IMG/VR virus record: IMGVR_UViG_3300032282_006516
Coordinates: 1 to 64,000 of that record
Direction: 5' to 3' (one strand)
Length of the DNA stretch: 64,000 nt
From: a virus
Below are positions 43,661-46,001 of the stretch, in pieces. Both the position numbers and the translations under genes were made by a program. Below the pieces are notes generated by a model. The model was not told the origin of the DNA and searched no databases. It saw nothing but the letters and a program-made list of their open reading frames with translations. Position 1 is the stretch's first letter. Each line of letters begins with the position of its first letter.

Positions 43661-44344
43661 CTACTCCTTGCCCTGAGCGAGAAAGCGCCGGAGAAGGCCC
43701 CTGGCCCGCTCCTTCAGTTCAGCAACTGTGCCGTCGTTCAGCAACACCGCGTCAAAAAGACTCGGGTCGATGCTTTCTTGCTCGGTTTCGCTCGCATGTT
43801 GCCCCGCCACGCCGCGGAGCCCCGCAGACGGTCGCTCCAAGCGCCAAACAATGCCGCCACCGCGTCGAATCGCATCGACTTCATTCTTGAAACGAACGTC
43901 CGGAATGATGACGCCCTTCGGCGCCAGCCACGCCGGCTGGATACCCGTCTGGGCGGTGTAGTTCAGCGTCCGCGCGGTGCCTGCAGAATCTAGGAGCGTG
44001 GTTGCCGCGCGCAGAGCGTAGTCAATCCACACGTTCTCGTAGCACGCCCTTCCCCACTCTGTACCGAGCTGCTGGAGGGCGTACCGCGGTGTCAGAAAGC
44101 CCTGGAAGTCATGCGCGCCACTGCCTTCCGGTGCTCGACTCCACTCCGATGGATAGCGCGTATCGGGCGCGTTTCGCTTCTCACTCGGCCCCCAAAGCTG
44201 TTCGTCGGTAAAGGCGAACACATCTTTGCAGAACCGCTTGAGCGGGTCGGCCAGGGAGACTTTCGTAAAACCGAAGTCTTTGACCAGGGCGTCCGCTGCG
44301 GTGTCCTTGCCGCTTCCGGCGAGGCCGCACAGACCCAAAATCAC
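43661..44344 (-). CDS. Deoxynucleoside monophosphate kinase
   Basis: 227 residues from GTG 44344 (GTGA overlap). P-loop GLAGSGKD near residue 5, LADPLKRFCKDVFAFTDEQLWGPS lid/substrate helix, LGTEWGRACYENVWIDYAL, and IIPDVRFKNEVDAI, all as in T4 gp1-type dNMP kinases, which phosphorylate dTMP, dGMP and modified dCMP for phage DNA synthesis. Close to dCMP deaminase, a partner in dNTP supply. Confidence 0.8.
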   Translation of the reverse strand: MILGLCGLAGSGKDTAADALVKDFGFTKVSLADPLKRFCKDVFAFTDEQLWGPSEKRNAPDTRYPSEWSRAPEGSGAHDFQGFLTPRYALQQLGTEWGRACYENVWIDYALRAATTLLDSAGTARTLNYTAQTGIQPAWLAPKGVIIPDVRFKNEVDAIRRGGGIVWRLERPSAGLRGVAGQHASETEQESIDPSLFDAVLLNDGTVAELKERARGLLRRFLAQGKE

Positions 44345-44649
44345 AGGAGCACCTCGATACCGGCCACCCGCGCACGGCGAAGCAGCACGTCCCGACGACC
44401 GCCCTGACGCCACACGCGGCCGTCCGAGATGTCGAGGAAATGCGTACCGTCCTGCGTGCGCAGGCGCCCCGTCAACGGACCTTCGGACACCGGCTGTTCA
44501 GCCGGAGCGGTCACAACAATCTGCGAACCCAGAAGGTTCAGCATGTCCTGCGCGGCCGTTTGAATTGCAATCTTAACGTACGCTTCCAGGTCATCGACGA
44601 AACGAAGAACGTGCGGCGCGATGGACTGGTTCAGTTGCTCGTGTGTCAT
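44341..44649 (-). CDS. Hypothetical protein
   Basis: 102 residues; helical half (YVKIAIQTAAQDMLNLLGSQIVV) and a beta half (GRLRTQDGTHFLDISDGRVWRQGG). Between dCMP deaminase and dNMP kinase, coupled by ATGA on both sides. Unknown. Confidence 0.6.
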   Translation of the reverse strand: MTHEQLNQSIAPHVLRFVDDLEAYVKIAIQTAAQDMLNLLGSQIVVTAPAEQPVSEGPLTGRLRTQDGTHFLDISDGRVWRQGGRRDVLLRRARVAGIEVLL

Positions 44650-46001
44650 GTGAACTCCTTGTGGTCGGAAGATTGCAGCCGGGACACGATAATGCCCACG
44701 CGCTCAAGAAGTTCAAGCGATTCTTTTCGCCGGTAATCTTGGGCGTACCAAACGCGCACGACTCCACCGAGATTGATGAGACGTTTCGCACACATCAAGC
44801 AGGGCAGGTGCGTGCAGAAAACAATCTTCGGCGTGTCGCGGGGCACGTCGCAGTTGATGACCGCGTTCTCTTCTGCGTGAAGGCAGTTTTGCGCTACCAT
44901 GCCTGCATTCCCGGCGGCGTACCACCCCGACCGGGTCTGAAGGTTGTACACATGGCCCGCCCACTCCTTGCGCTCGATGAGCCGGACCTTGTTCGACGCT
45001 ACCTTGAGGGGGACACTGTTCTGTCCCTGGCAGCGCGGTACAAGGTCTCGCACACGACCATCCAAAACCGCCTGCGCAAACACGGCGTCCTTCGCCAAAT
45101 GGCCGAGGACCTGCGCCGGCATAAGAGCGCCTCGCGGCTGCGCCTCCCCATCGAAGACCTCGTGCGCCGCTACAACGCCGGAGAATCCGCCAACGGCCTC
45201 GCGGCTGTATTCCACGTAAGCCGTGGTGCTATCGAACGCCGTCTTCAAGAGGCGGGAGTTCTCGACATCGAGCGGCGAACTACGCGCCGCTCCCGACGGG
45301 CGCGCGAAGTCGATGGCCGAGTGCGCCGGGCCTTGAACGCCGAGAAGCGGGGGACGCTCCAGGGCAGCGGGGAGGCTTGGTTGGTCGAAGAGACACAGAA
45401 AGCCGGACTCTTCGTAGAACCTCAGAAAGCAGTCGGAGGATACAACCTCGACCTCCTGGTCGAGCACACCGTCGCCGTGGAACTGATGACGGGCGCCAGC
45501 ATGCCGTACCAACCGGCCCGCTATGGCGAGCGACTCAAATACCTGCTCGACAGGCACACGCTTTTGGTCGTGTGGAGCTGCGGACGACACACCCTCGTCC
45601 CAGCAGGCGTGCAAAAGCTCGTCGCCCTCTTGAAGAGTCTCTGCAGCAACCCAACCCCGCCCAAGCACCAGTACTGGGTGATTCGGGGTGACGGTGAAGT
45701 CGTCGTACGCGGTGACCAGCCGTACGACCGTGCCCTCGTACCAGCGGCGGTACGCGCGTTCGACCGACAGTGCCGTCGTAAGCGTACCTGACACAAAACA
45801 GCCACAGTTTCCTACCGCGGCTTCACCGTGCACGTCGCAGTCGTTGTCGCACCCTGCCGCGTTGCCGTTGTACCCGACAGCCAGCACCTTTCTGAAATCG
45901 GGCGTAACAATCGCGCAACCCACACGCAGGCGACGACACGTCGAACGCTCGCTCATGCTGGAAGCGAGACGCATGTAAATGTCTTGAAACGAAGGACGCA
46001 T
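44646..46001 (-). CDS. dCMP/cytidine deaminase (ComEB-like) split by an intein
   Basis: 451 residues. Exteins: 1-67 plus 373-451 rebuild a 146-residue zinc deaminase with GNCG|CLHAEENA (Cys/His/Glu active site) and PCLMCAK (Cys ligands). The intein lies exactly before the active-site Cys. Start ATG 46001 is in a TGATG overlap. Deamination of dCMP feeds dUMP and then dTMP synthesis. Splicing would be required for activity. A homing-endonuclease-like gene sits antisense in the intein. Confidence 0.85.
   Translation of the reverse strand: MRPSFQDIYMRLASSMSERSTCRRLRVGCAIVTPDFRKVLAVGYNGNAAGCDNDCDVHGEAAVGNCGCFVSGTLTTALSVERAYRRWYEGTVVRLVTAYDDFTVTPNHPVLVLGRGWVAAETLQEGDELLHACWDEGVSSAAPHDQKRVPVEQVFESLAIAGRLVRHAGARHQFHGDGVLDQEVEVVSSDCFLRFYEESGFLCLFDQPSLPAALERPPLLGVQGPAHSAIDFARPSGAARSSPLDVENSRLLKTAFDSTTAYVEYSREAVGGFSGVVAAHEVFDGEAQPRGALMPAQVLGHLAKDAVFAQAVLDGRVRDLVPRCQGQNSVPLKVASNKVRLIERKEWAGHVYNLQTRSGWYAAGNAGMVAQNCLHAEENAVINCDVPRDTPKIVFCTHLPCLMCAKRLINLGGVVRVWYAQDYRRKESLELLERVGIIVSRLQSSDHKEFT
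44886..45800 (-). mobile_element. Intein in dCMP deaminase (305 residues)
   Basis: Block A CFVSGTLTT starts at Cys1; block B has the TPNHPVLV (TxxH) motif; block F/G reads WAGHVYNLQTRSGWYAAGNAGMVAQN, followed by extein Cys. The end is ...Gln-Asn|Cys with Gln in place of the usual His. The 180 or so residues between B and F have no sense-strand LAGLIDADG or HNH motif. Confidence 0.85.
44952..45791 (+). CDS. Homing-endonuclease-like protein antisense to the intein (double HTH + Vsr/EDxHD-like nuclease)
   Basis: 279 residues, wholly inside the intein coding region on the other strand, codons in exact register with it. Two HTH repeats at 12-47 and 69-104 share DLVRRY-x-x-G, LA, VS-x-x-x-I and RL-x-x-x-GVL. 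The C-terminal core has Glu141 (GEAWLVEE), YNLDLL with Asp167 and VAVELMTG with Glu177, like Vsr-fold/EDxHD homing endonucleases such as I-Bth0305I (named family; exact match not tested). Start ATG 44952 has only a weak AAGG. It probably moves the intein. Confidence 0.75.
   Translation: MARPLLALDEPDLVRRYLEGDTVLSLAARYKVSHTTIQNRLRKHGVLRQMAEDLRRHKSASRLRLPIEDLVRRYNAGESANGLAAVFHVSRGAIERRLQEAGVLDIERRTTRRSRRAREVDGRVRRALNAEKRGTLQGSGEAWLVEETQKAGLFVEPQKAVGGYNLDLLVEHTVAVELMTGASMPYQPARYGERLKYLLDRHTLLVVWSCGRHTLVPAGVQKLVALLKSLCSNPTPPKHQYWVIRGDGEVVVRGDQPYDRALVPAAVRAFDRQCRRKRT

Follow-up and report, generated by a model that had tools for sequence, protein, structure and literature searches.

An intein in a phage dCMP deaminase gene with a homing-endonuclease-like gene in register on its opposite strand

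The 64,000-nucleotide stretch of viral DNA analyzed here (the window; positions 1 to 64,000 of IMG/VR virus record IMGVR_UViG_3300032282_006516) contains a dCMP deaminase gene interrupted by what is very likely a mobile intein with its homing endonuclease encoded on the opposite strand, although splicing, nuclease activity, the cleavage site, homing, and transcription of the plus strand are inferred. One stretch of DNA is selected to encode two proteins in opposite directions. With good but somewhat lower confidence, inteins of this kind are considered widespread and old mobile elements of tailed phages, in which the two strands of the same DNA encode intein and endonuclease in register, the ribosome binding site and start codon lie in intein block F, and the active-site codons are locked to an intein motif, a layout that would have arisen at least twice.

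The interrupted deaminase gene and its intein

A dCMP deaminase gene on the minus strand (44646-46001) is interrupted by a 305-residue intein at 44886-45800. The N-extein (residues 1-67; 45801..46001) matches the phrog_174 dCMP deaminase family (8.9e-32) and PF00383, and the C-extein, which begins CLHAEENA, occupies 44649..44885 with its stop codon at 44646-44648; the whole protein matches PF00383 at 3.5e-15. The positions of both reading frames and the extein junction GNCG/CLHAEENA (the slash marks the splice junction here and below), as given in an earlier note made from the sequence alone, were confirmed. The intein frame is continuous with that of the host gene and interrupts a conserved site for which uninterrupted homologues exist. 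A tblastn search with the spliced extein returned 1333 phage deaminase records, and many of the homologues are uninterrupted. A megablast search of the region against phages gave no match. Close downstream on the same strand (43661-44413) is a deoxynucleoside monophosphate kinase gene (phrog_139, 5e-45), and the presence of kinase and deaminase on one strand suggests a nucleotide-metabolism cluster. The neighbor genes of the plus-strand gene are on the minus strand where they could be assigned.

The intein extends from C1 to N305, with a Hint splicing domain formed by its N- and C-terminal parts. The blocks expected from the earlier note are present, namely an initial Cys (C1 in 114 of 117 relatives), block B TPNH (45678..45689, minus strand; invariant or near-invariant in alignments), block F HVYNL (44940..44954, minus strand), and block G VAQN/C. 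A profile of the intein alignment matches the MJ0781 KlbA intein (7.5e-11) and the Mtu RecA intein (7e-10) in the PDB via the N- and C-terminal blocks. Foldseek places the intein model with the Mtu RecA intein (probability 1.00), but with no match at E <= 0.001, and the match to TIGR01445 is weak. The penultimate residue of this intein (44889-44891) is Gln, where most relatives have His, which could make splicing slower.

No nuclease match was found for the sense middle of the intein in Pfam or NCBIfam, indicating that there is no in-frame endonuclease domain. In the AlphaFold2 model, residues 1-66 and ~265-305 are predicted with high confidence and most of residues 80-122 with moderate to high confidence, while pLDDT is below 50 or close to it at residues 126-228 and for most of the remainder to residue 257. 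A conventional in-frame endonuclease was rejected on the basis of this low pLDDT and the missing nuclease match. The claim that the sense middle lacks an endonuclease motif therefore stands, but the part facing the nuclease core of the antisense protein is not empty, as it contains a conserved, codon-constrained FHGDG segment. Judging from the model, only residues ~126-257 look like an unstructured spacer (residues 126-257 at 45030..45425, minus strand), which faces the helix-turn-helix (HTH) units and linker of the plus-strand protein. A split intein was also rejected, as the minus strand carries a single uninterrupted open reading frame and the intein halves are not in separate genes.

The antisense gene, its start signals and its product

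The plus-strand gene (44952..45791; 279 residues followed by a TGA stop codon) lies entirely within the intein and in exact codon register with it, such that residue r of the plus-strand protein is opposite residue 284-r of the intein, in agreement with the earlier description of a 279-codon frame inside a 305-codon intein. Its identification as a homing-endonuclease-like gene is supported by profile matches, by its relatives, and by an inversion of the wobble position described below. Block F (H-V-Y-N-L-Q), when read on the other strand, is GGAGGTTGTACACATG, corresponding to a Shine-Dalgarno sequence, an 8-nt spacing, and ATG; the version in the window is GAAGGTTGTACACATG. Here a Shine-Dalgarno-like GAAGG (44939..44943, plus strand), the antisense of the block F Asn-Leu-Gln codons, is located 8 nt 5' of the ATG, and this ATG is the complement of the block F His codon CAT. 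Among the relatives, the block F His codon is CAT in 80 of 103 (background 0.33, P 2e-20), the Leu codon is CTC in 81 of 104 (background 0.28, P 7e-26), and GGAGG, GAGG, or GGAG is found as a Shine-Dalgarno sequence in 77 of 107. The choices of CAT and CTC are invisible to the intein protein. As far as sequence alone can tell, block F doubles as the Shine-Dalgarno sequence and start codon of the endonuclease. No sigma-70 promoter or terminator was seen near the plus-strand start.

The AlphaFold2 model of the plus-strand protein (pLDDT 87) comprises two HTH units and then a nuclease core with an alpha-beta fold. HTH unit 1 (residues 10-43; 44979..45080) is predicted to have helices at residues 10-18, 23-30, and 34-43, and HTH unit 2 (residues 67-100; 45150..45251) likewise consists of predicted helices. 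The protein alone matches HTH_58 (3.9e-5, at residues 68-103) and phage DNA-binding families (phrog_1303, 4e-8, for unit 1), and a profile built from the protein and its relatives matches the HTH protein 2lvs (8.6e-10, covering unit 1) and the DUF559-like nuclease 3hrl (9e-9) in the PDB. A profile from a smaller alignment matches the catalytic domain of the homing endonuclease I-Bth0305I (3r3p, 3.7e-5). These matches to the nuclease core (residues 139-254; 45366..45713) are accompanied by Foldseek comparisons of the model, in which Vsr (1cw0, probability 0.90) and I-Bth0305I are among the top matches with weak E-values (0.25-0.34); no Foldseek match reached E <= 0.001, and the sequence profiles are the stronger evidence. 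The profile search proposed in the earlier note has thus yielded both HTH and nuclease matches, and its two HTH repeats are borne out.

The Vsr/EDxHD-like core that the earlier note had read from Glu141, YNLD, and VAVE is found at those positions and is supported by the profile and fold comparisons. The putative catalytic residues are E141 (45372-45374), D167 (45450-45452), and E177 (45480-45482), which are conserved in 74/75, 74/75, and 75/75 relatives, respectively. Many relatives have AVExxGGxWH; the copy in the window reads AVELMTGASMP and is missing the histidine of GGxWH, the strict EDxHD His. The last ~40 residues of the plus-strand protein, which face blocks A and B, have no constraint beyond that of the intein itself. 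Consequently, the conservation of VIRG, in the plus-strand motif YWVIRG (45669-45689) opposite block B TPNH, may be merely a shadow of the intein motif.

Relatives and selection on both strands

Searches by tblastn with either protein identified related inteins in phages of Gordonia, Pseudomonas, Mycobacterium, Rhodococcus, Klebsiella, Vibrio, Aggregatibacter, and others, and the same arrangement and register were found in contigs of bacterial genomes (the pattern search of these contigs used a smaller alignment, the 75-sequence alignment being too diverse). Scans of IMG/VR gave 343 relatives of the plus-strand protein and at least 528 of the intein, of which the best 80 of each were retained; an earlier viral scan with the single protein had found only the virus of the window. 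At all of 172 loci compared, the register is the same and the overlapping genes lie on opposite strands. In the full set of 205 unique sequences (191 clusters at 90% identity), which are retrieved relatives matching both profiles, the genes are on opposite strands in 205 and in register 0 in 204, and the plus-strand gene is wholly inside the open sense frame in 203. The sole relative whose best intein and endonuclease matches fall in different registers (L239, ~2000-2820) appears to have both frames shifted, possibly because of an indel or an assembly error. A second search was carried out with only the 68 residues spanning blocks A and B, which avoids choosing for the antisense gene, and this gene was present in 80 of 80 relatives. 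As a negative control, 15 unrelated inteins found with a divergent Vibrio query were inspected, and none contains it.

The N-exteins of this family were assigned to Phage_Mu_F (48 of 97), Phage_min_cap2 (9), VG15 (9), uracil-DNA glycosylase (UDG, 4), dCMP deaminase (2), and RtcB (1), the occurrences in genes of the UDG superfamily and in an RtcB gene being observations on the side. The intein is also located in a dCMP deaminase gene, at a different site, in Rctr197k (KX853510.1; 616-1968 of locus L002) and in an IMG/VR virus (L014). The Rctr197k intein is 42% identical to that of the window and occupies another site of the same kind of gene (PCxx/CAKRLI). The GenBank name of this Rctr197k gene, 'putative head morphogenesis protein', seems to have been transferred from the intein, as does the 'head protein' name of PHROG 15127. 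In a contig of a Chloroflexi metagenome-assembled genome (L181, 2092-3475), the antisense protein apparently has extra HTH copies that match a longer sense spacer.

Such a distribution bears on the possibility that an endonuclease gene recently jumped backwards into this single mini-intein, leaving the open sense frame incidental. The absence of protein constraint on the sense spacer facing the HTH part would fit such an event, but the shared register in phages of Gordonia, Pseudomonas, Aggregatibacter, Klebsiella, and Vibrio and in bacterial-genome contigs, together with the stop-codon counts given below, contradicts it. A recent one-off backward insertion is thus rejected in view of the family-wide conservation, and hardly any credence is left for it. 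The observations that would have refuted the original proposal were likewise not encountered, as relatives keep both frames and have the plus-strand protein within inteins, not at unrelated loci.

Substitutions between close pairs were counted at sense codon positions 1, 2, and 3, and the test was also run on the whole set with an extein control. From block F to the end of the intein, where only the intein is encoded, the differences are 12/9/46. The counts are 44/16/81 over blocks A-B, 68/25/68 just past block B, 83/12/54 around FHGDG, and 442/170/263 in the part facing the HTH units and linker, where the ratio of position 1 to position 3 is 1.68 (P 1.6e-11). As sense position 1 is the wobble position of the plus-strand gene, the wobble inverts inside the endonuclease region. 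Intein constraint dominates the ends, constraint on the plus-strand protein dominates the middle, and both are constrained in between. These results demonstrate purifying selection on a conserved antisense gene.

The opposite frame was probed with a stop-codon test on 71 unique loci chosen by the plus-strand protein alone. The codons TTA, CTA, and TCA, which would be stops in the intein frame, were seen 0 times in the plus-strand gene versus 359 expected from extein codon usage; this expectation is only approximate because the extein codon background comes from small samples. Both frames are also open in inteins at 33-45% GC. The intein frame is thereby shown to be kept open by selection.

The simplest objection to a real antisense gene is that the plus-strand frame is a shadow without a product, left open because the intein gene is GC-rich. 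In GC-rich genes, open antisense frames are most frequent in exactly the register observed here, and a conserved sense motif brings with it a conserved antisense one, as for TPNH and VIRG. Neither point accounts for the inverted substitution pattern, which contradicts a shadow frame and led to its rejection; the HTH and nuclease profile matches, the codon bias for a Shine-Dalgarno sequence and ATG in block F, the open frames at low GC, and the lack of an antisense-gene match in the 15 unrelated inteins also argue against it, and scarcely any probability remains for this reading.

Dual coding is seen at the 12 bases 45471..45482, which encode VAVE of the nuclease on the plus strand and FHGD of the intein on the minus strand. 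Among 102 relatives, the plus-strand (V/I)AVE codons are GTC or ATC in 96, GCC in 100, GTG in 96, and GAA in 96, where the codon backgrounds for Ala, Val, and Glu are 0.34-0.39. The VAVE codons are frozen because the opposite strand encodes FHGD. The residue following FHGD on the sense strand is Gly in most relatives and uses all four codons, and the plus-strand residue there is Pro, Ser, Ala, or Thr. Altogether, 12-15 bases at the nuclease motif are shown to be constrained on both strands.

Since ~12 bases are nearly invariant, it could be proposed that only one strand is selected for protein at any one place and that the frozen bases are a DNA-level signal such as a binding or regulatory site. 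Constraint at the DNA and protein levels is not fully separable at single sites, and a small but real chance is left for this explanation. Variation nevertheless occurs where the sense protein tolerates it, with GAC or GAT for the Asp and four codons for the Gly after FHGD, and AlphaFold2 predicts strands at sense residues 97-101 and 116-121. The free wobble of the Gly codon is better explained by selection on the intein protein than by a signal in the DNA. The two-strand constraint that the earlier note had suspected is shown by the wobble inversion, the zero count of antisense stops, and the frozen synonymous sites.

Mobility, a second origin and related systems

The proposed mechanism for an intein with its homing endonuclease on the opposite strand is as follows. 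First, the minus strand would be translated through the whole insert, and the Hint domain (intein residues ~1-125 and ~258-305) would excise itself to restore the deaminase, leaving residues ~126-257 as a spacer that is open yet seems to have no function. The plus strand would be translated separately, from the Shine-Dalgarno sequence and ATG in block F, to give the HTH-HTH-nuclease protein. Finally, this protein would bind alleles without the intein and cut them at the insertion site, and repair would copy the whole element in.

Indirect evidence for mobility comes from near-identical Gordonia phages. The MuF intein of Fosterous is absent from ChadMasterC, with an exact junction at HEVIN/CRC, and the spliced Fosterous sequence is identical to the empty ChadMasterC gene at 2222 of 2286 bases. 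At the same MuF site, Nordenberg, Lennon, Sitar, Barsten, and other Gordonia phages contain a different, unrelated intein. In Nordenberg (NC_055777.1) this intein is located at 971-1795 of locus L193, and an antisense in-register frame (1085-1672 of the locus, minus strand) encodes a 196-residue protein with the LAGLIDADG-like motif AAYVAAFIDGEG. This protein matches the phrog_5046 endonuclease family (2.2e-15), is weakly similar to I-MsoI, and has a relative in a free-standing endonuclease gene of Cyanophage PP; it has no Pfam match, and no relatives were found in IMG/VR by pattern search. Nordenberg and Barsten differ at sense positions 1, 2, and 3 of the overlapped middle by 40/3/7, which, on comparison of the two sequences, reads as a plain signature of selection on the antisense gene. 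As an unrelated intein with an antisense LAGLIDADG-like gene is present at the same site, the architecture probably has at least two origins, involving unrelated nucleases, one Vsr-like and one LAGLIDADG-like.

A real antisense protein need not be a homing endonuclease, and could instead be a DNA-binding regulator or a nuclease carried by the intein against competitors. Its activity is only inferred, it has two HTH units, and the usual location of the intein in head genes could suit action against competing phages. Such a role is given a slim chance, as it is opposed by the near-invariant catalytic E-D-E columns and the similarity to the I-Bth0305I catalytic domain, by the disjunct presence of the intein at an exact site in near-identical phages, and by the second, unrelated endonuclease in the same configuration.

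A homing endonuclease on the opposite strand of an intein has partial parallels. Dassa et al., in 2009, reportedly described split inteins separated by a free-standing EDxHD-type gene. In those split inteins the same nuclease superfamily is paired with inteins, whereas the intein of the window is unbroken and has the gene overlapping it on its opposite strand. Similar to classical inteins with an in-frame LAGLIDADG or HNH endonuclease (PI-SceI, Mtu RecA), the window intein has Hint blocks A, B, F, and G, a conserved insertion site, and an endonuclease inside the intein (PMC3943268). In contrast to these, the endonuclease is a separate opposite-strand protein with its own start signals and the sense middle has none. 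I-Bth0305I and other EDxHD enzymes and Vsr (3r3p, 1cw0) share the nuclease fold, the E...D...E core, and the tethering of the nuclease to DNA-binding modules (PMC3943268); the known I-Bth0305I/EDxHD enzymes are encoded in introns or free-standing, while the window gene is antisense within an intein and does not have the motif histidine. His-Cys homing endonuclease genes are antisense in nuclear rDNA group I introns (PMC9548176), which is likewise an endonuclease antisense to a splicing element, although there the other strand is a ribozyme and here both strands encode protein in register. In ShiLan, an in-frame phage insert also hides an endonuclease, an out-of-frame HNH, but this one is read from the same strand in its third frame, and neither an intein nor an intron was detected (PMC11855218). 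A preprint on actinobacteriophage inteins with non-canonical architecture (10.1101/2025.01.02.630785) is cited in PMC11855218 for frequent overlapping frames in actinobacteriophages and may cover some of these Gordonia inteins. No case of an intein whose two strands both encode proteins in register was found in the literature examined, though this preprint may anticipate part of the finding.

The arrangement violates the rule that the endonuclease of an intein is encoded in frame with it, and it uncouples endonuclease expression from expression of the host protein. It is among the clearest natural examples of long overlapping genes in antisense orientation, and the selection acting on each strand can be followed at single-base resolution across ~190 distinct sequences. 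It also provides a direct test case for two folds sharing one stretch of DNA. The findings further suggest that hundreds of nuclease genes lie unannotated within phage genes annotated as 'head proteins'.
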